Part shown: positions 1 through 9,246 of the stretch, piece after piece | How the letters are laid out: every line of letters starts with the position of its first letter | How positions within the stretch are numbered: the stretch's first letter is position 1 | Origin: an uncultured Clostridia bacterium | GTDB lineage: Bacteria; Bacillota_A; Clostridia; TANB77; CAG-508 | Assembly (NCBI GenBank): GCA_944388685.1 | Contig: CALXJS010000056.1 | Coordinates: 1 to 9,246, forward strand | Direction of reading: 5' to 3' | Length of the DNA stretch: 9,246 nt | Made by a program: the position numbers and the translations under genes | The notes under the pieces: generated by a model | The model's database searches: none | What the model was told of the DNA's origin: nothing | What the model saw: the letters and a program-made list of their open reading frames with translations, nothing else

Positions 1-76
<76 letters not shown>

Positions 77-102
77 ATAAGTTTGAATTATTTACAAAAA
101 AA

Positions 103-179
103 TGGCGACCCGGAACGGGCTCGAACCGTCGACCTCTAGCGTGACAGGCTAGCGTTCTAACCAACTGAACTACCGGGCC
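103..179 (-). tRNA. tRNA-Asp (GTC)
   Basis: The reverse complement is a 77-nt cloverleaf. The acceptor stem GGCCCGG pairs with CCGGGTC (one G-U pair) and is followed by discriminator G and an encoded CCA. The anticodon stem CTAGC/GCTAG encloses the loop CTGTCAC, giving anticodon GTC for aspartate. It lies 26 nt from tRNA-Phe and 10 nt from tRNA-Val, so the three are almost certainly one transcript. Confidence 0.97.
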
Positions 180-189
180 GTAAAAAACA

Positions 190-265
190 TGGTGGTCGCT
201 ACAGGGCTCGAACCTGTGACCCCCTGCTTGTAAGGCAGATGCTCTCCCAGCTGAGCTAAGCGACC
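190..265 (-). tRNA. tRNA-Val (TAC)
   Basis: The reverse complement is a 76-nt cloverleaf with acceptor stem GGTCGCT/AGCGACC, discriminator A and encoded CCA. The anticodon loop CTTACAA gives TAC, the valine isoacceptor. The anticodon stem carries one T-G pair at its outer end. It is the promoter-proximal gene of the Val-Asp-Phe cluster. Confidence 0.96.
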
Positions 266-285
266 ATGTCCTTTCGACGAAATCT

Positions 286-314
286 AGTATACAAAATTTT
301 TAATAAGTTGTCAA
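286..314 (-). promoter_or_regulatory. Housekeeping promoter of the tRNA cluster
   Basis: On the minus strand a perfect -35 TTGACA (309-314) is separated by exactly 17 nt from the -10 TATACT (286-291). The first tRNA begins about 20 nt downstream of the -10. This is a near-consensus sigma-A promoter, as expected for stable RNA genes. No other strong promoter candidate lies between it and tRNA-Val. Confidence 0.9.
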
Positions 315-518
315 TAGATTTTTATAAAAAATTCAAAAAAATTTCAAAAAAATATTAAATAAATCTATGAATTACTTGAAAAATAGTAAAATATGAGCAA
401 ATAAAAAATGAAAATAAAAAATAGAAACTGTAACACAAAAATAATAAAAACATATTATATATCATACAGAAGAAAGAAAAGAAAAACATAGTTCTTTTAA
501 CGGAAGGAGGTCTAGACT

Positions 519-635
519 ATGCCAGAGAACAGAGGATGCGGAGGATTCGGATTTGGTGATGATTGTTGCTGGATTATAATCCTTATCTTATTAATATGCT
601 GTTGTTGCGGAGGTAACAGAGGAGGATGTTGCTAA
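519..635 (+). CDS. Small Cys/Gly-rich membrane protein, YjcZ-like
   Basis: This is a 38-codon gene. ATG follows the strong ribosome site GGAAGGAGG with 8 nt spacing, and it stops at TAA 633-635. The product has a Gly/Phe-rich N-terminus, a Cys-Cys-Trp step (residues 16-18), an Ile/Leu-rich hydrophobic stretch (about 19-26), a CCCC run (27-30) and a Gly-rich tail ending in CC. Nine of 38 residues are cysteine. Glycine-rich N-terminus plus short hydrophobic segment resembles the YjcZ family of tiny Bacillota proteins linked to sporulation. That assignment rests on composition and layout, not on a clear homology match. It is monocistronic, with a hairpin 20 nt after the stop. A CATACA element at 463-468 could be the -10 of a sporulation-type promoter, but this is weak. 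The cysteines could bind metal or form disulfides; the function is unknown. Confidence 0.82.
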   Translation: MPENRGCGGFGFGDDCCWIIILILLICCCCGGNRGGCC

Positions 636-654
636 TCCTTTAGAGTTACGCATA

Positions 655-683
655 AAAGGAGGAGTGTTTTACACTTCTCCTTT
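655..683. terminator. Hairpin between convergent genes, probable bidirectional terminator
   Basis: A 12-bp stem, AAAGGAGGAGTG (655-666) against CACTTCTCCTTT (672-683), has one G-U pair and the 5-nt loop TTTTA. It lies between the stop of the small Cys-rich gene and the stop of the acyl-CoA synthetase, which point towards each other. Each 3' arm ends in a short T run (TTT on plus, TTTT on minus) but no long U tract follows. Termination in both directions is therefore likely but not textbook. Confidence 0.75.
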
Positions 684-707
684 AACTATTATTACTCCAA
701 TTGGGCA

Positions 708-2466
708 TTACTTTTTATTTTCATCATATTTCATATTATCACCATAGCGTTTTACTTTTTGTGTGGTTGTTTTTTCAAATTCTTTATCTCTAATAATAAA
801 TCCTTTAATATGTTTGTAATTTGGTAGTTTACTATTAACATTAGAAACAACATCTGAAATAATTTTTTTAATTTCTTCTTTTGTAGGAACACTGCCTTTC
901 AAATATTCTGAAATTGCTTCTAAATTTGGATAGATTTGTGCTTTTACATAAGTTTCATCATCATCTGATTCTTGGATTCCTTGAACCAAAGCTTCAGAAA
1001 TTAAAGGATTATCATTTAAGTAGTATTCAACTTCTTCTGGATAAATGTTTTTACCATTTTTGGTTACGATAACGCTTTTACATCTACCAGTAATGTATAA
1101 ATATCCATTTTCATCAATTTTTCCTAAGTCACCTGTATGGAACCAGCCGTCTTTCATAACATTTGCAGTGGCTTCTGGGTTATTATAATACCCTAACATA
1201 ACATTTGGACCTTTTACAATAATTTCACCAATGCCTTCACTGTTGGGAGAATCAATTTTATATTCTACATTTGGAATCGGAAGTCCTGCTGCGTCATCTT
1301 TTTGAAAGAAATCTGTATTTCCAGCAACTAAAGGAGAACATTCTGTTAAACCATATCCTTGTAATGTATTTAAGTTTAATTTCCTAAAATCAGATAGAAT
1401 TATTGGATTGGCAGCTGCTGCTCCAACAATAAATACACGTAATCTTCCACCAAGTGTGTTTTTTACTTTATTTTTTACGATTTTCTTTATAATGAAAGGA
1501 AGCGTATCAAAAGGATTTTCATCTTGATTTTCTTTTCTGTATTTTTCTGGTAAGGTTTTGTTCATATTTCTAACAATAGTTTTATGCATTTTTTCTAAAA
1601 GTAAAGGCACGCATAAAATGACAGAAGGATGAAATTCAGCCATGTTTTTAGCGATATATCGTAATCCTTCACAATGTGCAATACTGGCCCCACTATAAAT
1701 AGGTAATAAAAAGCCTAAGGTACATTCATATGTATGATGTAAAGGAAGGACTGAGAAAAACAAGTCACTTCTTTTTACTTTTACAATTCCATAAGTAGAA
1801 AGAATATTAGAGCAAATATTTCTTTGTGATAAGCAAACCCCTTTAGCATTTCCTGTTGTACCAGAAGTAAATAATAAAATACGTAGTTCATCAGGATTTA
1901 CTTGAATAGTATCAAAATCATGAAATCCATTTGAATAGCTATTTTTTCCGATTATTTTTAAATTATCAAAATATAAGATATCATTTGTTTTAGAATCTAT
2001 CTTATCAAATGAAACCAATACGGTTTCTTTATTATTTAATGTATTTCGATTTTCTCTTATAGAAGTTAAATTTTTTAAATCACCTAAAATACAAATTGTT
2101 TCTGAAACATTCATAAAATTAATGACATCCTCACAATGTAATTCTTTATCAATAGGAACAACAATGCCTACAATAGAGGCAGCCATATAAGCTACACACC
2201 ATTTGTAACTATTTTTTCCAATAACTGCAATACGTTTATTTAAGAACCCTCTTTTAATTAAATCTGTACTTAAATAAACAACATCATTTTTAAATTCTTC
2301 ATAGGTAATAGAAATGATATTTCCGGTTTTCGTCTTTTAACTTAAAAGCTGTTCTAGATTTAAAGTTTTCGGCAGAGTTATATAACATATCTTTAAAATT
2401 TGTAACTTCCTTAGTTTTATGATACTTTTCTTTTAATTGTTCAGCAATAGTTAAGTTGTTTTTCAT
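708..2466 (-). pseudogene. AMP-forming long-chain acyl-CoA synthetase, frameshifted near the N-terminus
   Basis: This ANL-superfamily enzyme would activate a fatty acid with ATP to acyl-AMP and then transfer it to CoA. The original start is the ATG at 2464-2466, with GGAGG 6 nt upstream. Reading runs 47 codons and then hits one extra C in a CCGG at 2323-2326, which sends it to a stop after 8 foreign codons. Removing that base gives a continuous 585-residue protein of normal family length. The uninterrupted part, 708-2186, still holds all the adenylation motifs. In restored numbering these are P-loop TSGTTGNAKGV (200-210), YGLTE (371-375), GWFHTGD (440-446), the TGR...K hinge region (about 459-474) and catalytic Lys 570 in TTTQKVKR. 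It is the second gene of an operon with the membrane protein upstream. The shift could be real decay or a base error; the intact motifs suggest it is recent or artefactual. Substrate chain length cannot be read. Confidence 0.88.
2323..2326 (-). other. Single-base frameshift site in the acyl-CoA synthetase
   Basis: The coding strand reads GACGAAAACCGGAAATATC. The upstream frame gives Asp-Glu-Asn then Arg-Lys-Tyr and soon TGA. Dropping one C gives Asp-Glu-Asn-Gly-Asn-Ile-Ile and continues through Tyr-Glu-Glu-Phe into the remaining protein without a break. The whole span 708-2466 is 1759 nt, one more than a multiple of three, which agrees with a single inserted base. Confidence 0.85.
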
Positions 2467-2478
2467 GTTTTACCTCCT

Positions 2479-3276
2479 TTAGTTATATCGATAAAAAGTA
2501 TAATTTGTATCTTGTTTGTTTGTTATACTACCATCAAATATGGTTTCTTCTCCAGAAGAAAGTGGTATATCAATAAATACTGTTGTTTTAAAATCTTCAT
2601 CTAAATTATTAGTGATATGAATGTCAAATGAAAGTGTGCATTGGATATCTTCTAAATTAATATTACATTTTTTCAATAAGGAACCATCATATGTAATAGG
2701 TGAAGTAACATCTGTTATAGTATAATCAGGCTTTATATTAGCATCCACATAACTAAAGGTTAAAGGATTTGCTAAATTATTGTATAAAGTAGGTGTATTT
2801 AAATCTGCTTCATCACTGGAAGATATAGTGAATTCAAAAGAATCCGTAATTCGATTTTCTTCTATTATATCACTTTTGGCAAAATCATTAATACTTTTAA
2901 AATATAAACTAGGTTCTCCTAATTTTGGTGAGTTTGAAAATTGTATATTTTCAATACGAACTTTCTTCAATGTATTTTCTAATGTATCTTCATCAGATGT
3001 ATTTTTTATAAATAAAGCAATGTCTGTATATTGATATAAGTTTTGTATTGTAAAATTATTTACTGTATTGGTTTTATAACCCGCATCAGCACTACTAAAC
3101 AAGGTAACAGAATCCACTGTAAATATCGTAGATTGATTTTTGTCAGCAAAACTTAGAATATCCTCTTCAAAATTTTTCTTCAAGACATATTTTTGAAAAA
3201 CTAAAATTGCAAGAAAAATAACAATACAAATTAAAATAATGGTAATAATGGTTAAAATGATTTTTGCTTTTTTCAT
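2479..3276 (-). CDS. Membrane-anchored extracytoplasmic protein of unknown function
   Basis: The protein has 265 residues. I chose ATG 3276 because GGAGG (3282-3286) sits 5 nt upstream. An in-frame GTG at 3297 would add seven residues but lies upstream of this ribosome site. The N-terminus is MKKAK followed by one strong hydrophobic segment (about residues 6-26) and then a basic QKYVLKK patch, which looks like a single N-terminal anchor with the rest outside. The remaining about 230 residues are rich in Thr, Ser, Asn, Asp and beta-prone stretches, with no catalytic motif or known domain that I recognise. Two cysteines near residues 204 and 212 could pair. It is the first gene of an operon with the acyl-CoA synthetase; its stop overlaps the next ribosome site region, leaving a 12-nt gap. 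That pairing hints at an envelope or lipid-related role, which is inference only. Confidence 0.85.
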   Translation of the reverse strand: MKKAKIILTIITIILICIVIFLAILVFQKYVLKKNFEEDILSFADKNQSTIFTVDSVTLFSSADAGYKTNTVNNFTIQNLYQYTDIALFIKNTSDEDTLENTLKKVRIENIQFSNSPKLGEPSLYFKSINDFAKSDIIEENRITDSFEFTISSSDEADLNTPTLYNNLANPLTFSYVDANIKPDYTITDVTSPITYDGSLLKKCNINLEDIQCTLSFDIHITNNLDEDFKTTVFIDIPLSSGEETIFDGSITNKQDTNYTFYRYN

Positions 3277-3301
3277 AAATTCCTCCTTAGTAAACACCTA
3301 T

Positions 3302-3330
3302 ATCATAGTATAAAAATCTAAGAAAATCAA
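3302..3330 (-). promoter_or_regulatory. Promoter of the membrane protein/acyl-CoA synthetase operon
   Basis: On the minus strand TTGATT (3325-3330) is spaced 17 nt from TATGAT (3302-3307), followed by a short leader and the GGAGG site. A second -10-like TATACT overlaps within the spacer but would leave only 12 nt to the -35, so TATGAT is preferred. It is divergent from the promoter at 3367-3395 with about 36 bp between the two -35 boxes. Confidence 0.72.
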
Positions 3331-3366
3331 TAGCGAAAAAGCATAGAAATTTTCCAAAATTTTAAA

Positions 3367-3395
3367 TTGACAAAAATAGACACAAAGGGTAAAAT
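3367..3395 (+). promoter_or_regulatory. Promoter of the glucosaminidase gene
   Basis: A perfect TTGACA (3367-3372) stands 17 nt before TAAAAT (3390-3395). The predicted transcription start near 3402 leaves only about 10 nt before the ATG at 3412, so the leader would be very short and would start at the ribosome site. The TTG of the -35 box also opens the reading frame in silico, but it is not a credible start. Confidence 0.65.
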
Positions 3396-3411
3396 GATGA
3401 TAGGTGATTAT

Positions 3412-4665
3412 ATGGAAACAAAAGAAAAGAAAGAGAAAAAAGTAAAAATAACAATTAAACATATGATATATTTTTTAGTTTTTATAGTATTTATGCTATA
3501 TTCTATTCTTTTTTATAATCTATATTTCTCTAAAGAAGTGTATGCAACAGAAGAGATAGCAGATAATAATGAGGAAAAAATCAAAATTAGCAATGCGAAC
3601 GAAATAAATCTAGAAGAAATTATTACACAAAATACAAATGATGGACAAAGGGAAGAATATGAGGTAAGAGAAGAAGTATTAGAATATATTACCAAATATA
3701 GAACAAACACAAGCATTCCTAAAGGAATTGTACAGGTGGTACAAGAAGGAAGACAAGGAACACAGGAAGTTACGATAAAAAAGACCTATAAAGATGATAC
3801 ATTAGTTAATGAAGAACAAATTAATCAAAAAGTAACCAAAGCTTCTATTAATAAAATTGTAGAAATTGGAGGAGGATTAGGAACAAGTAATTATACTGCA
3901 AAGGTAGGAGATACTTTATATGTAACATCAGATAGATTATCGGTTATGGTAGAACCGAATGAAAATTCACAAAAAGTCGCAACTTTATCAGAAAATGATA
4001 CATTGGAATTAAAAGCAATACAAGGTTCTTGGTATCAAATAGAAAGTGGAACAGCAAGGGGATATGTAAAAGCAGAATGTACAACCTATATAAATCCAAA
4101 TAAACCAAATGAAAATGAAACGATAACAGAACAAGAAAATACAAATAGCAAAACAGCAAATGAATTGAAGAGTACATTGAGTTTCAATATGGCATTAAAT
4201 AAACCAAGTGGTTTATCCTTAGAACAATTTAAAAACGTATTAAATGATGATAAAGACAAAAATAATATTTTTTCAAAAAATGCAGAATATTTTTATTACA
4301 TAGAAAAGCAATATAATATTAATGGGATATTTGTTGCTGCAGTTGCTATCCATGAAAGCGCATGGGGAACTTCACGAATATCTTTAGAAAAGAAAAATTT
4401 ATTTGGTTATGGTGCTTATGATTCTAATCCATATAATAGTGCTTATAATTTTTCGGATTATTCAGAAAGCATAGATTTATTAGCAAGAGTATTTGTAAAA
4501 TACTATTTAAATCCAAAAGGAACCAATATATATGGTGGAGAGATAGCAACAGGTTCTTATTATAATGGTGCAACATTAACTGGTGTTAATACAAAATATG
4601 CAACAGATAAAAATTGGGCAAGCAGTGTATATCAATATATGCAATATTTATATAATAAATTATAA
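3412..4665 (+). CDS. Secreted G5-SH3-glucosaminidase peptidoglycan hydrolase
   Basis: This wall enzyme is expected to cleave the beta-1,4 bond after N-acetylglucosamine in peptidoglycan. With the start at ATG 3412 (AGGTGA 4 nt upstream) it has 417 residues. ATGs at 3394 and 3397 are alternatives, but they overlap or abut the -10 box. Order: basic KKEKK tail, hydrophobic segment (about 17-38), probable signal cleavage after VYA (43-45), acidic spacer, G5 domain (about 80-155; IPKG, QEGRQG and a closing GGG), bacterial SH3 domain (about 161-227), Asn/Thr/Glu-rich linker, and glucosaminidase domain of the LytD/LytG type (about 260-417). The catalytic acid is most likely Glu 315 in AIHESAWGTS; the NLFGYGAYD and NTKYATDKNWA segments fit the family. 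The G5 and SH3 domains probably bind the wall. It appears monocistronic, although no strong terminator follows. Role in separation or turnover is inferred. Confidence 0.88.
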   Translation: METKEKKEKKVKITIKHMIYFLVFIVFMLYSILFYNLYFSKEVYATEEIADNNEEKIKISNANEINLEEIITQNTNDGQREEYEVREEVLEYITKYRTNTSIPKGIVQVVQEGRQGTQEVTIKKTYKDDTLVNEEQINQKVTKASINKIVEIGGGLGTSNYTAKVGDTLYVTSDRLSVMVEPNENSQKVATLSENDTLELKAIQGSWYQIESGTARGYVKAECTTYINPNKPNENETITEQENTNSKTANELKSTLSFNMALNKPSGLSLEQFKNVLNDDKDKNNIFSKNAEYFYYIEKQYNINGIFVAAVAIHESAWGTSRISLEKKNLFGYGAYDSNPYNSAYNFSDYSESIDLLARVFVKYYLNPKGTNIYGGEIATGSYYNGATLTGVNTKYATDKNWASSVYQYMQYLYNKL

Positions 4666-4672
4666 AAAATTC

Positions 4673-4701
4673 TTGCTATTTTTCTAAAGTTATTGTATGA
4701 T
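4673..4701 (+). promoter_or_regulatory. Probable promoter of the 4765-8800 operon
   Basis: TTGCTA (4673-4678) is separated by 17 nt from TATGAT (4696-4701). The -10 differs from consensus at one position and the -35 at two. It begins only 7 nt after the glucosaminidase stop, and a leader of about 55 nt follows before the first ATG. There is no terminator hairpin between the two genes, so read-through from upstream is also possible. Confidence 0.68.
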
Positions 4702-4764
4702 ATATAGGTATAAAAAAAATAAGGATTATTTTGCCAAAAATAAAAAGAAAGGGGCAACAAATAG

Positions 4765-5172
4765 ATGAAAAAAGCAATAATGATTGTTACAATGATTGTG
4801 ATTGTTTTTGGAATATTCATTTGTACAAATAATGTTTATGCAACAGAACAAGCAATTGATGAAGAAACTGAAAGCAAATTAGTCGAGATAAAGGATAATG
4901 CAGCTAATTCAATAGAAGACTATAAGGAAAAATATGGTTCAGATGTGTATGGAATAGTCGCTTACATTTTAAATGTTATTAGAATTTATAGTATACCATT
5001 TTGTTTCCTTGGAATTGCGATTGGCGCTATCCATAGATATGTAGTCGGTGTTAGAAAATTAGATACCTTAGAAAAAGGTATGGGATTAATTGTAACTTTT
5101 GTAACATTATTAATTATATGCCAAGTATTACCACTAGCATTTGCAGTGTTTGTAAGATTTGGAAGGGGGTAA
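4765..5172 (+). CDS. Small signal-peptide plus two-TM protein (VirB2/TrbC-like topology)
   Basis: The protein has 135 residues. The ATG follows AAAGGGG with a rather long 10-nt spacing. An N-terminal signal sequence (MKK plus hydrophobic residues 4-20) has a likely cleavage site after VYA (24-26). A short acidic helical segment follows (about 27-57), then a first membrane segment (about 62-89), a basic loop with RYVVGVRK (91-98), and a second membrane segment (about 106-130) ending in RFGRG. Signal peptide, two membrane helices joined by a basic loop, and this size match VirB2/TrbC-type pilins. I see no conserved pilin motif and no conjugation genes nearby, so the family is unproven; it may be a small membrane partner of the next protein. 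The stop is 3 nt from the next ATG and the 3' end carries that gene's ribosome site, so the two are translationally coupled. Confidence 0.83.
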   Translation: MKKAIMIVTMIVIVFGIFICTNNVYATEQAIDEETESKLVEIKDNAANSIEDYKEKYGSDVYGIVAYILNVIRIYSIPFCFLGIAIGAIHRYVVGVRKLDTLEKGMGLIVTFVTLLIICQVLPLAFAVFVRFGRG

Positions 5173-5175
5173 CAA

Positions 5176-7656
5176 ATGAAAGTTTTATTTGCTGTAAGTA
5201 ATGAGGAAATTTCACAAGCGATTATAAAAAAATATCAAAAAGATTATAAAGAAATTATTTCACATAAAAATGTGTATTACTTTAATGCAATATTAAAAGA
5301 AATACAAAAAGATAAATCATATGATAGAATTGTAATTAGTGAGGATTTAGAGGCTTTTTCACATACGCAATATGATCAAATTGATAAATTTATATTTGAA
5401 AAGTTAGATGTGATTAGTGATGAAGCATCTAATATGAGAGGTAGTGATATTCCAATAATCTTAATTTGTTCAGACAGAAGAACAAAATCAGAGCCAATGT
5501 TGGTAAAACTATTTGGAATAGGAATTTACAATGCGATACTTGGAAATGATAGAAGTGTAGACGAAGTATGTAGATTGATAAACAAACCAAGATTAAAAAA
5601 AGAAGCAAAAAACTACTATAAAATTGATGCTGAAGAAGTAACGTATCAATCAGAAAATGAAAATGATGTCAGTGAAATGGAAATACAAAATATCTTAGCA
5701 CATTACAAAACTTTAGGAAAAGATGAAGATAGATATATAGATAGTTTTAATAATATTGCTGCACAATATAATGATACACAACTAAGAATTATAACAAAAT
5801 TTTTACCATTAAATGTAAGAGCGGTATTGGAAGAAAGATCTCCTAAATATCAAAAAATTATGTCATTTAATAATAAAGTATCAGATGAACTAAGACAGAA
5901 AAAGAAGAAAGAAGAATCAGGAACTAGTGAAAAATTATTAAAACCAAAAGATAAAAATGTCACAATGACAAAACCAGTTGTTATTCCTTCTTCTGTAAAT
6001 ATGGCAGGGGCTAAAAAGATGTCTAAACCTAAAAAAATACAACAGGAAGTAATGCCACAACAGCCAATGCAAGAAGTGCAACAAAGAAGATTTGTACAAC
6101 AACAACCAAGTGAGGTAATGGCAAATGTACAAAGACAAAATGTAACTCCAGCAATAAATACTATAGGAAATAATGAACAAACAGTTGTACAACCACAAAT
6201 TATAGAGCAAGAAGTTGCACAACCACAAACAGTAGAACAACCAGTAAAAAGAGGAAGAGGAAGACCAAGAAAAAATCCTGTACAACCACAAACAGTAGAA
6301 CAACCAGTAAAAAGAGGAAGAGGAAGGCCAAGAAAAAATCCAATTCCTGTAGAACCTGAAAATACAATCTTACCTGGATTTGAAGATGAAAATGATGATA
6401 AAGAAGAAAATGTAATTTTACCAGGATTTGACGATATAACGCCAATTGAAAACGAGCAAACGAATGGATATCAAGCAGAAAGTGAAACTATTTTGCCAGG
6501 ATTTGAAGATGAAGAAGAGAATATGGATGAAGATGATATGGTATTGCCAGGATTTGAAGAAGTGGATGATGAACCAGAACCAGAGCCAATACAATATACT
6601 TCACCAAATCCTGTACCACAACAGACAAGTGAATACAGTAATGCTCAATCAAATGATTATTTTTCTTATGATAATAATCAATCTCAAAATACGTATAACA
6701 ATATAAATTACGCATCTTCAGATTCAATGAATATAACTAGAACCAATAATGATTATGTACAAAAAATAGATATTTCTTCATTATTAACATCAGATAAAAA
6801 GATAGTAACATTTGTAGGGACAAGTAAAAACGGAACCTCTTTTATTGTTAATAATGTTGCAGAATTATTATCTTCAATGGGAATAAATGTAGCAATACTA
6901 GATACAACAGTAAATAGAAATTCATATTATATTTATACCAAAAATGAAGAGGCATTAAGAAATATTGCTTCAAAAAGTATTGAGGAACTTTCACAAGGTG
7001 TTGCTAATGGAATACAAGTAAATAAAAATTTAACAGTGTTTACATCTTTACCAGATGAAAGGGATTCTATTAGTAGAGTGGATGAAATATTAGAAACATT
7101 AGTAAAGAATTATTCATTAATATTGATAGATTGTGACTTTAATACACCAATTGGGTATTTTAAACAATCTTTAGAAACATATTTAATCCAATCAATGGAT
7201 ATACTTACAATACAACCACTTACAGCATTTTTAAGAGAATTAAAAGCTAAAAATATATTAGACGAAAATAAATTAAAAGTCATACTAAATAAATTTGTAA
7301 AAGTTAGAGGAATCAATGAAAAGACCATTATAGGTGGAATGGCATTTTATAATGATCCAGCAATGTCTTTTATGACAGAATTATTTGATAGAAATTTAAT
7401 TAAATATATAACAATACCTTTTGAAGAAGAAATTTATATAAAATATTTAGAGGGAATCATCAATTGTGATGTTAATTTGAAAGGATATTCAAAAACATTC
7501 ATGCAAGTTTTAAAATCATTAGGAAATATGATTTATCCATTGGTTTCAGGACAAGGCACATATAGACCACCAACAGTTAATGAAAATAATGGAGGGATGG
7601 GAACGTTTTCTCAAAGTATGAATGATACATTAAATCAGATGAAAAGAAATTTTTAA
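5176..7656 (+). CDS. CpaE/TadZ-like protein with receiver-like N-domain, tandem AT-hooks and degenerate MinD-type domain
   Basis: The protein has 826 residues; GGAAGGGGG precedes the ATG. Residues 1-140 read like an atypical receiver: MKVLFAVSN strand, RIVISED near 51-57, PIILICSD (93-100) and GIYNAILGNDRS (116-127); the usual early acidic pair is missing. A charged helical region (about 160-245) is followed by a Gln/Pro/Val-rich linker (about 255-395) with AT-hook motifs KRGRGRPRKNP at 358-368 and 379-389. Four LPGF repeats (397-464) and an Asn/Ser/Tyr-rich stretch (to about 530) come next. Residues 542-790 look like a MinD/ParA-type domain: KIVTFVG strand, GTSKNGTS where a P-loop should be, LILIDCDF (648-655) as Walker B-like strand, then ILTIQPLTAF. 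The P-loop lacks the GKT/GKS core, so ATP hydrolysis is doubtful. Receiver plus MinD order is that of CpaE/TadZ, which localise Tad pili, yet no Tad genes are here. DNA binding through the AT-hooks is inferred. Confidence 0.85.
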   Translation: MKVLFAVSNEEISQAIIKKYQKDYKEIISHKNVYYFNAILKEIQKDKSYDRIVISEDLEAFSHTQYDQIDKFIFEKLDVISDEASNMRGSDIPIILICSDRRTKSEPMLVKLFGIGIYNAILGNDRSVDEVCRLINKPRLKKEAKNYYKIDAEEVTYQSENENDVSEMEIQNILAHYKTLGKDEDRYIDSFNNIAAQYNDTQLRIITKFLPLNVRAVLEERSPKYQKIMSFNNKVSDELRQKKKKEESGTSEKLLKPKDKNVTMTKPVVIPSSVNMAGAKKMSKPKKIQQEVMPQQPMQEVQQRRFVQQQPSEVMANVQRQNVTPAINTIGNNEQTVVQPQIIEQEVAQPQTVEQPVKRGRGRPRKNPVQPQTVEQPVKRGRGRPRKNPIPVEPENTILPGFEDENDDKEENVILPGFDDITPIENEQTNGYQAESETILPGFEDEEENMDEDDMVLPGFEEVDDEPEPEPIQYTSPNPVPQQTSEYSNAQSNDYFSYDNNQSQNTYNNINYASSDSMNITRTNNDYVQKIDISSLLTSDKKIVTFVGTSKNGTSFIVNNVAELLSSMGINVAILDTTVNRNSYYIYTKNEEALRNIASKSIEELSQGVANGIQVNKNLTVFTSLPDERDSISRVDEILETLVKNYSLILIDCDFNTPIGYFKQSLETYLIQSMDILTIQPLTAFLRELKAKNILDENKLKVILNKFVKVRGINEKTIIGGMAFYNDPAMSFMTELFDRNLIKYITIPFEEEIYIKYLEGIINCDVNLKGYSKTFMQVLKSLGNMIYPLVSGQGTYRPPTVNENNGGMGTFSQSMNDTLNQMKRNF
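6217..6342 (+). repeat. 63-bp in-frame tandem duplication encoding two AT-hook units
   Basis: Units 6217-6279 and 6280-6342 agree at 60 of 63 bases; the differences are at unit positions 2, 48 and 63. Each encodes 21 residues made of a QPQTVEQPV spacer and the AT-hook KRGRGRPRKNP. A diverged half unit at 6187-6216 encodes VQPQIIEQEV and matches the spacer portion only. The high identity, including third codon positions, points to a recent duplication or gene conversion. Confidence 0.95.
6364..6567 (+). repeat. Four LPGF(E/D) acidic repeats
   Basis: The motif [TVM][IV]LPGF[ED][DE] occurs at protein residues 397-404, 413-420, 438-445 and 455-462 within a highly acidic stretch. Spacing is irregular (16, 25 and 17 residues), and codons vary between copies (TTACCT, TTACCA, TTGCCA, TTGCCA for LP). 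This suggests selection on the peptide rather than recent DNA duplication, in contrast with the AT-hook units just upstream. Confidence 0.85.
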
Positions 7657-7672
7657 ATAGGAGGAATTAACA

Positions 7673-8800
7673 GTGATAATAGGGGTTGCTGTAGTATTAG
7701 TAATAATTGTAATCATACTAGTCATTTATAATATAAAAATTAGTCAAAAAATTCAAAAATTCAAGAATATCAATCAAAAAATTACTAACCTACAAGTTGT
7801 TCAGGACTTTATGAATACAATAGGTGAAGCTACTTCAGTAGATGATAAAATTAAGAAAATTAATAATATTCTTATTGAAAAATATGAGATAAAATACTCA
7901 ACTATTGTTGTTTTTAATGGTGCTGAATATGAAATAAAAGCTTCAAATGTAGATCAAAGACATTGGGATTCACTAAAATCATTGCAAGATGTAGAAATGT
8001 TTAAAGATAGTATCCAAACAGCAACACCTAAATATGTTACTGTCAATAATGAAAATGAACGATTACCATATCAGAAAATGGAATTTGGTAGAGCAAAATC
8101 AGCAATATTTTTCCCACTATACATCGATAATGTTTATATTGGATATTGGATAATCGAAAGTGGCACACCACATGATTTTGATAATGTTGATATTACAGTA
8201 TTGGAGGTTATTAAAGACAATATTGTATCTGTATTAAAAACAGTTGTCCATCAAAAGACATTAGAATCTATTGTTAGAACAGATTTATTTACAGGACTTT
8301 ATTCTGAAGAATATTTGTATGGAGAAGGAAAGAAAATTATAGACCAATATACAATATCTACAATATGTATGTTTAAAATTATTAATATAGAAGAAATTAA
8401 TAAAAATTATTGCAGAGAATTGGGAAATGAAGTGATAAAAGAAATTAGTGCATATATACAAGAAAGTATTTCTAATGATTATGTATTTGTTAGATATATG
8501 GGACCTAAATTTGTTATAGCGTTTTCAGGTGTAGATACAGAAGGTGTGGCAGCATTTGTTAATGATATAAAAGAACATATAGAGCAAATGAGAATTTCTT
8601 TACCAGAGGAAAGTGATACATATACAAATGAATTACCAGATGAAGGAAATGTAGATATGGTAAATCAAGAAGTAACACCATTGATTAATATTGCTTTATC
8701 TTCATATTACAAAGGAACAGGCTTAGAAGAAGTTTTAAAGAAATTAGAAGAATATTTAGACAATGCAGATAAATCAGAAAGTGATATAACCAATATATAA
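7673..8800 (+). CDS. Membrane GAF-degenerate GGDEF protein
   Basis: The protein has 375 residues and starts at GTG, supported by AGGAGG with 8 nt spacing and by the hydrophobic N-terminus that it begins. A single membrane segment (2-19) is followed by a short coiled-coil-like basic stretch (20-45), a GAF-like domain (about 42-190; AIFFPLYIDNVYIGYWIIES near 144-163), and a GGDEF-fold region (about 200-362). The GGDEF entry motif is recognisable as TDLFTGLYSEEYL (203-215). The signature loop, however, reads RYMGPKF (274-280) where RxGGDEF is expected, and the DxDxFK metal site is replaced by FKIINIEEIN (234-243). A diguanylate cyclase would need these, so it is almost surely inactive and may be a binding or scaffold domain. 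It lies 16 nt after the CpaE-like gene in the same operon. Whether it binds c-di-GMP, another nucleotide or the CpaE-like protein is unknown. Confidence 0.84.
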   Translation: MIIGVAVVLVIIVIILVIYNIKISQKIQKFKNINQKITNLQVVQDFMNTIGEATSVDDKIKKINNILIEKYEIKYSTIVVFNGAEYEIKASNVDQRHWDSLKSLQDVEMFKDSIQTATPKYVTVNNENERLPYQKMEFGRAKSAIFFPLYIDNVYIGYWIIESGTPHDFDNVDITVLEVIKDNIVSVLKTVVHQKTLESIVRTDLFTGLYSEEYLYGEGKKIIDQYTISTICMFKIINIEEINKNYCRELGNEVIKEISAYIQESISNDYVFVRYMGPKFVIAFSGVDTEGVAAFVNDIKEHIEQMRISLPEESDTYTNELPDEGNVDMVNQEVTPLINIALSSYYKGTGLEEVLKKLEEYLDNADKSESDITNI

Positions 8801-8855
8801 GATAATATGAATGTACACAAAAGAAGAATGCCTTACAAAGATAAGACATATAATC

Positions 8856-8884
8856 TTGTTGCTTAAGAAAAATCTTAATATAGG
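8856..8884 (+). promoter_or_regulatory. Possible ireB promoter with an inverted repeat in its spacer
   Basis: TTGTTG (8856-8861) and TATAGG (8879-8884) are 17 nt apart. The last 16 nt of the spacer (8863-8878) form an inverted repeat, TTAAGA-AAAA-TCTTAA. Both hexamers are only partial matches, and the leader to the ATG would be about 68 nt. The surrounding gap, 8801-8958, holds no credible gene and no GC-rich terminator. Confidence 0.3.
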
Positions 8885-8958
8885 GTCAAAAAAATTTAGA
8901 TTTTCTATACAACAAAAAATAAATCTTTAACTACAAAAATCAAAAAGGAGGTACTTGT

Positions 8959-9216
8959 ATGGAATTTGACAAAACAATGAATTTTAAAGTAGAAAGAGAA
9001 CAAAATGTGAAATGTCAAGAAATTTTAAAAGAAGTTTATGAGGCTTTAATGGAAAAAGGATATAATCCAATTAACCAAATTGTTGGATATATTTTATCTG
9101 GTGACCCAACATACATCACTAGCCATAATGATGCAAGAAATAAGATAAGAACAATAGAAAGAGATGAGTTATTAGAAAAAATGGTAAAAAAATATATAGG
9201 ATTAGAAGAGGACTAA
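8959..9216 (+). CDS. ireB: IreB family regulatory phosphoprotein (UPF0297, YrzL)
   Basis: The protein has 85 residues with AAGGAGG 7 nt before the ATG. The family core is unmistakable: [20 protein letters not shown] followed by [20 protein letters not shown], flanked by a helix [13 protein letters not shown]. Length is normal for the family. In Enterococcus faecalis IreB is a small cytoplasmic protein phosphorylated by the Ser/Thr kinase IreK on N-terminal threonines and acts against cephalosporin resistance. Here Thr 6 in DKTMNF is the likely equivalent site. The gene is followed after 1 nt by ruvX, the order seen in many Bacillota (ireB/yrzL-ruvX). The kinase is not in the window. Confidence 0.96.
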
Positions 9217-9217
9217 T

Positions 9218-9246
9218 ATGAGAATATTAGGAATAGATTATGGAGA
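9218..9246 (+). CDS. ruvX: Holliday junction resolvase-like RuvX/YqgF, 5' fragment
   Basis: Only the first nine codons are present before the window ends: MRILGIDYG. This is the conserved opening of the RuvX/YqgF RNase H-like nuclease family, with Asp 7 the first catalytic aspartate. The ATG starts 1 nt after the ireB stop, so the two are translationally coupled, and the position directly after ireB is the standard context. The family acts in pre-16S rRNA processing or recombination; which applies here cannot be read. Confidence 0.85.

Follow-up and report, generated by a model that had tools for sequence, protein, structure and literature searches.

A conserved pair of AT-hooks in the linker of a receiver- and MinD-like protein from one family of uncultured Clostridia

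Protein T, encoded in a window of 9,246 nucleotides from an uncultured Clostridia bacterium (contig CALXJS010000056.1, positions 1 to 9,246), carries two AT-hooks in a long linker, predicted to be disordered, between a receiver-like and a MinD/ParA-like domain (Table 1). Judged from sequence comparisons, these hooks are genuine and under selection, the protein itself is widely conserved and, on the evidence here, the pair appears to have been gained once, inside one bacterial family (f1). Since the hooks are kept while the remaining linker drifts, T probably holds the chromosome, and it seems fairly probable, from the motif and by analogy, that the hooks tether T to AT-rich DNA, as in Myxococcus CarD. 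The observations behind this reading are the motifs and their conservation, a tree with one gain, the disorder and folds predicted for T, and synteny.

Table 1. Features of T and its neighbours, in positions of the window
Feature	Position	Strand	Details or basis
c1 (135 aa): signal-like N-terminus, two hydrophobic helices, short basic loop	4765..5172	+	topology read from sequence
T (826 aa)	5176..7656	+	receiver-like domain, helical domain, disordered linker with AT-hooks, MinD/ParA-like domain, C-terminal helix
N-terminal alternating beta/alpha, receiver-like domain, residues 1-160	5176..5655	+	AF2, TadZ alignments
Helical domain of T, residues 165-242	5668..5901	+	AF2 model
Disordered linker of T, residues 245-530	5908..6765	+	AF2 pLDDT, pN/pS
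63-bp tandem duplication holding both hooks, 2.0 copies, 98% matches	6219..6341	+	
AT-hook 1, KRGRGRPRKNP, residues 358-368	6247..6279	+	
AT-hook 2, KRGRGRPRKNP, residues 379-389	6310..6342	+	
Acidic tract with four LPGF motifs (6370, 6418, 6493, 6544), directly after the hooks	6352..6555	+	sequence
MinD/ParA-like domain of T, residues 540-790	6793..7545	+	P-loop GTSKNGTSF at 6817-6843
Conserved C-terminal helix of T, residues 813-825, SMNDTLNQMKRNF	7612..7650	+	AF2 prediction
GGDEF-domain protein (375 aa), MGPKF in signature place	7673..8800	+	PF00990, 36.5 bits
IreB, start of conserved downstream block	8959..9216	+	PF06135, 134.7 bits; synteny

An earlier note on this DNA had described T as having a receiver-like and then a MinD-like domain, an order that is backed by an AF2 model, fold searches and hhalign. 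In the AF2 model, pLDDT is mostly >90 in the N-terminal domain and <50 over most of residues 245-524 of the linker; a previous AF2 model from 41 rows was poor (mean pLDDT 54.4) and its fold search was superseded. The VIA alignment of TadZ (3FKQ) to the model covers residues 1-788 in one row, with an rmsd of 16.9 over both domains, and hhalign of the N-terminal domain against four TadZ-like proteins gave a probability of 94.1 (E 1.3e-7, 114 columns); it is on this one VIA row and this one profile comparison that the receiver assignment rests. Comparison of T with a single f1 TadZ-like protein (L255) was weaker than the four-sequence comparison, with a profile probability of 23 in the ATPase part and no match of the N domain, and a search of the PDB by sequence alone returned no credible relative. 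The order of the two domains is that of CpaE/TadZ proteins, and fold searches of the AF2 model place T in the ParA/MinD superfamily. The P-loop reads GTSKNGTSF, GTGKNGTSF or GTTKNGTSF in 98/98 f1 proteins and GxxKxGT[ST]F in 18/19 proteins of the sister families, the remaining one being unmatched by the pattern. The deviant Walker A motif, KGGxxK[ST], is absent from T, whose lysines are missing from the usual places (as placed by eye), and this degenerate Walker A makes an ATP-driven cycle doubtful. At the other end of the protein, a tail of the form T[LI]xxM[KR] is found in 92/98 family members.

Both KRGRGRPRKNP motifs that the earlier note had reported in the linker are present within 6217..6342, and each has the G-R-P core with K/R flanks that defines an AT-hook, as do two motifs in each of 98/98 distinct f1 proteins. 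The Pfam AT_hook model (PF02178) scored below threshold on T (15 bits vs a cut-off of 17.4) and passed once in 55 whole genomes (G002, 21.2 bits), and was thus too weak to serve on that scale. The sequence RGRP[RK]K arose in 0/15,800 composition shuffles of 79 linkers, these being the 79/98 proteins that matched the landmarks used. GC content ranges from 26 to 36% over the linker, and the window contains 54 A/T-only runs of five or more per kb. Because the two hooks lie in a 63-bp duplication with 98% matches, the two copies in this genome are not independent, and the evidence must come from relatives.

Relatives were collected in two ways. In a first search, 8000 candidates were scored and 7279 were significant; among the best 120 of these (66-99% identity), 118 carry two hooks and 2 carry one. 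Genome searches then gave 98 distinct f1 proteins, window included, after 15 duplicates and two sister fragments were dropped; this set leans to closer relatives, as the best-matching loci were fetched, and at least one of its frames (L100, 617 aa) is truncated. Each of the 98 has two hooks and no more, spaced 18 to 34 residues apart, a count in which GRP invariance is partly circular since the hooks were located by GRP. Outside this core, R at -1 and K at +4 occur in 195/196 hooks; G, R or K stands at position -2. Selection of hooks by motif makes their pN/pS partly circular as well, and for this reason the GRP codons were separated from the rest and the columns of a motif-independent alignment were used. 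In this alignment of 41 rows, R361-P364, K366, K379 and G383-P385 are invariant, both GRP cores included.

Comparison codon by codon, over up to 1500 random pairs from the L001-L080 set and the window, gave pN of 0.31-0.57 at positions -8 to -5, 0.00-0.21 at -4 to +6 and 0.35-0.62 at +7 to +14. The kept stretch is therefore a sharp block of 11 codons with edges at -4 and +6, next to linker codons that vary freely. In the eight hook codons around GRP, pN is 0.08, compared with 0.51 outside, and pN/pS for these eight non-GRP codons is 0.21 vs 1.32 outside, with silent change persisting inside the block. By region, pN/pS is 0.80 in the linker, 0.13 in the N domain and 0.29 in the C part. The check proposed in the earlier note, whether the GRP core is kept while the flanking linker diverges, came out positive in the 98-protein set, the 41-row alignment and the per-codon pN. 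A chance or low-complexity origin of the hooks was rejected on the shuffles together with the sharp pN box.

The distribution of the hooks was followed in whole genomes. T, or a piece of it, was found in 55/55 related genomes searched (in G044, 60 positions only), and a DNA pattern for RGRPxKN matched in 30 of these, i.e., in 30/35 f1 genomes and 0/20 genomes of sister families; every listed match lies within the T gene (coordinates compared by eye). A reversed control pattern matched in 4/55 genomes, and a looser hook pattern matches other genes too. Across 287 genomes of the order, at least two matches to RGRPxK on one strand, counted as pattern matches rather than verified hooks, occurred in 201/234 f1 genomes vs 1/53 genomes of families f2-f5, and in that lone genome 28.7 kb separate the two matches. 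The 33 f1 genomes below two matches, together with G374, were picked for their shortfall and re-examined. T was matched in 26/34 and had no match in 8/34, so T is not claimed to be universal in f1. Among 24 readable linkers of this set, 17 have two or three hooks (two in 16, L124 standing for G197, and three in L210), five have one (L215, L220, L221, L226, L228) and two have none (L225, L233); L223 and L234 are fragments without a linker. In most pattern misses the GRP core is still there and the flanks differ, e.g., KRRGRPPKK, and the linker of L225 is lysine-rich without GRP. The pattern that the earlier note would have taken as refutation, a linker that stays basic without GRP, does occur in a minority (no hook in L225, one in five loci). 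The members with one hook or none, including 2 of the 120 close relatives with one, speak against the DNA-grip reading.

Those related loci that carry names come from metagenome genomes labelled Clostridia, Clostridium or Eubacteriales, and a gut habitat is our reading of some isolate names. In a class-wide sample, 15/196 genomes matched T, nine of them from the same order and the other six at the hook region only. No hooks were found in 19 proteins from the four sister families (one of them, L117, a 297-aa fragment). In a tree of 50 hand-chosen rows, built without linker and tail and without the exception members of f1, all hook-bearing rows form one clade (support 100/99), hooks change once, and the nearest hookless sisters are P0136, P0143 and P0163. 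The GC content of the loci is 27% in f1 and 30% in the sisters; both are AT-rich, so something beyond base composition is needed to account for the gain. The earlier note had called the hooks eukaryote-style, and the AT-hook motifs are indeed genuine, but a eukaryotic origin need not follow, given the single gain in a bacterial family and the hook pair on an M18 peptidase that is described below.

T sits between the conserved two-helix membrane protein c1, whose stop is 3 bases before T, and ireB-ruvX. A comparison of 45 loci, drawn from five families, showed c1 at 44 of them; ireB was found at 41, the ruvX cluster at 39 and the DUF1292 cluster at 36, the last two clusters being named from one member each. 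The GGDEF-domain gene starts 16 bases after T, and a GGDEF-like gene is found near T in 34/45 loci (27/27 in f1, 7/8 in f5 and 0/10 in f2/f3/f4). The last 85 residues of c1 are strongly conserved in f1, and no curated family scores above cut-off. T4SS_pilin (PF18895) matched 6/28 members (best E 1.8e-5, 25.1 bits vs a cut-off of 26.6) and VirB2 (PF04956) matched one (14.2 vs 27.9 bits); the c1 of the window was matched by neither, and is not assigned to the T4SS_pilin/VirB2 class.

The label CpaE/TadZ-like, which the earlier note had given to T, holds for the domain architecture and does not extend to a Tad locus. In contrast to CpaE/TadZ of Tad pili (e.g., E. rectale TadZ, 3FKQ), T is not encoded in such a locus, has a linker of ~280 residues with hooks and LPGF repeats, and has the P-loop GTSKNGTSF. 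No Tad genes (CpaF, TadB/C, CpaB, Flp) were found among the neighbours in the window or the ten recurrent flanking genes of relatives, which encode metabolic enzymes, ATP synthase, transport, SMC-like and other proteins. Four sister genomes, one per family, have a separate locus with T2SSE and a ParA/MinD-like protein of 414-443 aa, and the f1 genome L251 has a Tad-like locus elsewhere, with SAF, T2SSE (27.8 bits) and a protein with sub-threshold AAA_31 similarity. Since these five Tad-like loci carry their own ParA/MinD-like proteins (in f1 by sub-threshold similarity only), CpaE/TadZ-like is used here for architecture only; T, which occurs throughout this order, is related to CpaE/TadZ in architecture and is not claimed as a pilus protein. 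A statement that f1 lacks CpaF was withdrawn on account of the divergent Tad-like locus of L251 with its T2SSE protein (27.8 bits). Separately, L254, L255, L256, L239 and L240 have, beside gyrB or gyrA, a block that encodes a VirB4/TraG-like P-loop protein together with a ParA/MinD-like one, to which the sisters add T2SSE and T2SSF genes; the next 1.4 kb of L255 are without a long frame. In this block, gyrB of L254 and gyrA of L256 were assigned by Pfam and the rest by eye.

AT-hooks are best known from animal chromatin proteins, and HMGA proteins have tandem AT-hooks with an acidic segment. No further similarity between HMGA and T was found, and the hooks of T lie in a linker inside a two-domain protein. 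CarD of Myxococcus xanthus has four RGRP hooks by an acidic tract that bind the AT-rich minor groove and can be replaced by human HMGA, and also by other basic disordered domains (PMC8156234). CarD (PMC8156234) and T are alike in that each has, within a disordered segment of a bacterial protein, more than one RGRP hook and an adjacent acidic tract. CarD, however, belongs to the transcription factors, with four hooks and a domain that binds RNA polymerase, whereas T has receiver-like and MinD-like domains and two hooks. Because CarD works, less well, without hooks and other basic disordered domains serve (PMC8156234), the hooks of T may help without being needed.

The nucleoid-binding proteins ParA and MipZ share the MinD/ParA fold with T, and the location would be the same if the hooks of T bind DNA. 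ParA/MinD proteins position cargo by holding nucleoid or membrane, and the DNA-binding residues of ParA, MipZ, McdA and PomZ lie on the ATPase; in T, by comparison, the grip would be in the linker, and the Walker A lysines look lost. ParA and MipZ bind DNA via conserved residues of their own, and BcsQ (RGGVGTT) is without the catalytic lysine (PMC9178275), as T appears to be. A TadZ-like receiver domain outside a Tad locus is described for TsfV of T7SSf (PMC11217815). BcsQ and TsfV differ from T in having other partners, and hooks are unmentioned in the passages on them (PMC9178275, PMC11217815). AT-hooks joined with a ParA/MinD or CpaE/TadZ protein were not found in titles and abstract starts of the best-ranked open-access literature. 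We regard T as a novel pairing of two known elements and not as a system of a new type.

In the DNA-grip reading that is preferred here, T would be a receiver-plus-MinD-type positioning or scaffold protein, the linker hooks of which would grip the minor groove of A/T tracts and so hold T on the nucleoid. The adjoining acidic LPGF tract may tune or compete for this grip, a role that its counterparts in HMGA and CarD may also have. Should the MinD-like domain form dimers, each dimer would present four hooks, with a gain in avidity on a chromosome rich in A/T throughout; the folded ends of T would contact a partner, most likely c1 in the membrane. DNA binding, dimerisation, contact with c1 and a nucleoid location are what we infer from the observed features. 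A further step, which we put forward tentatively as a possibility, is that T is a chromosome-to-membrane tether, with its folded ends on c1 at the membrane and its hooked, HMGA-like linker on the chromosome; the DNA binding of such a tether would reside in the disordered linker, not on the ATPase surface, and would have been gained once in one gut Clostridia family. A ParA/MinD protein with HMGA-type hooks acquired in its linker would indicate that a short disordered module suffices to change the surface held by such proteins, and would be a second well-marked bacterial AT-hook protein beside CarD. As the hookless sisters share both folded domains, natural variants can reveal the effect of the hooks.

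The charge of the linker bears on an alternative in which the hooks are polyanion grips for RNA or for the acidic LPGF tract of T itself, hook and acid block forming an internal switch. Net charge is -30 across residues 393-480 of T and has a median of -20 over the whole linker; in 98/98 f1 members, the 80 residues that follow hook 2 carry a net negative charge (median -22), against a median of +11 in the hook block. The acidic tract could neutralise the hooks, a point against the DNA grip. RNA binding is also possible for AT-hook-like basic peptides. We nevertheless consider this alternative unlikely, since a charge-only switch needs no fixed G, R and P, and these are kept while their neighbours swap K, R and G; moreover, the DNA-binding hooks of CarD also have an acid tract alongside (PMC8156234). 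The acidic tract of T contains four LPGF[ED] motifs, and the number of LPG-type motifs in relatives ranges from 0 to about 12. These repeats look like a short binding motif for some partner; pN/pS of LPGF was left unused, as it is circular for a motif chosen by its letters.

The C-terminal tails raise a different alternative, i.e., that the hooks replace a membrane anchor, their basic residues binding anionic lipid or a membrane partner. A basic-plus-LF/FF tail, like a membrane-targeting helix, is found in 15/19 sisters vs 1/98 members of the hook family, and for CpaE a C-terminal amphipathic helix has been proposed to act at the membrane (PMC13170226). On the tree, however, the tail changes 7 times vs one gain of hooks, the nearest hookless sisters (P0136, P0143, P0163) are also without such a tail, and the hook block, as read from sequence, has no hydrophobic face, which makes this alternative quite improbable. 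A swap of a C-terminal membrane tail for hooks was rejected as not clean, given these 7 changes against one and nearest sisters that are without both. It is hardly credible that the pair arose by neutral growth of a low-complexity repeat rich in Q, P and K, as the 63-bp units with 98% matches and the none to three hooks in a minority of relatives might suggest, when pN/pS is 0.21 in hook codons vs 1.32 just outside with silent changes present, and 98/98 relatives have two hooks.

AT-hook motifs were also seen on other proteins. In family f10 of the same class (L128, L130-L133), a tandem hook pair, KRKRGRPRKNP followed by KRGRGRPRK or RRGRPPKN, lies at or near the N-terminus of an M18 aminopeptidase, an unrelated enzyme (PF02127, 315 bits in L128; L130, L131, L132 and L133 alike by eye). 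KRGRPSKK is found in sister family f5, in an N-terminus ahead of an FtsK/SpoIIIE membrane region in L181 (1486-3018; PF01580, 107 bits, and FtsK_4TM), and L180 and L186 are like it by eye, each with a single AT-hook-like motif on a DNA translocase.
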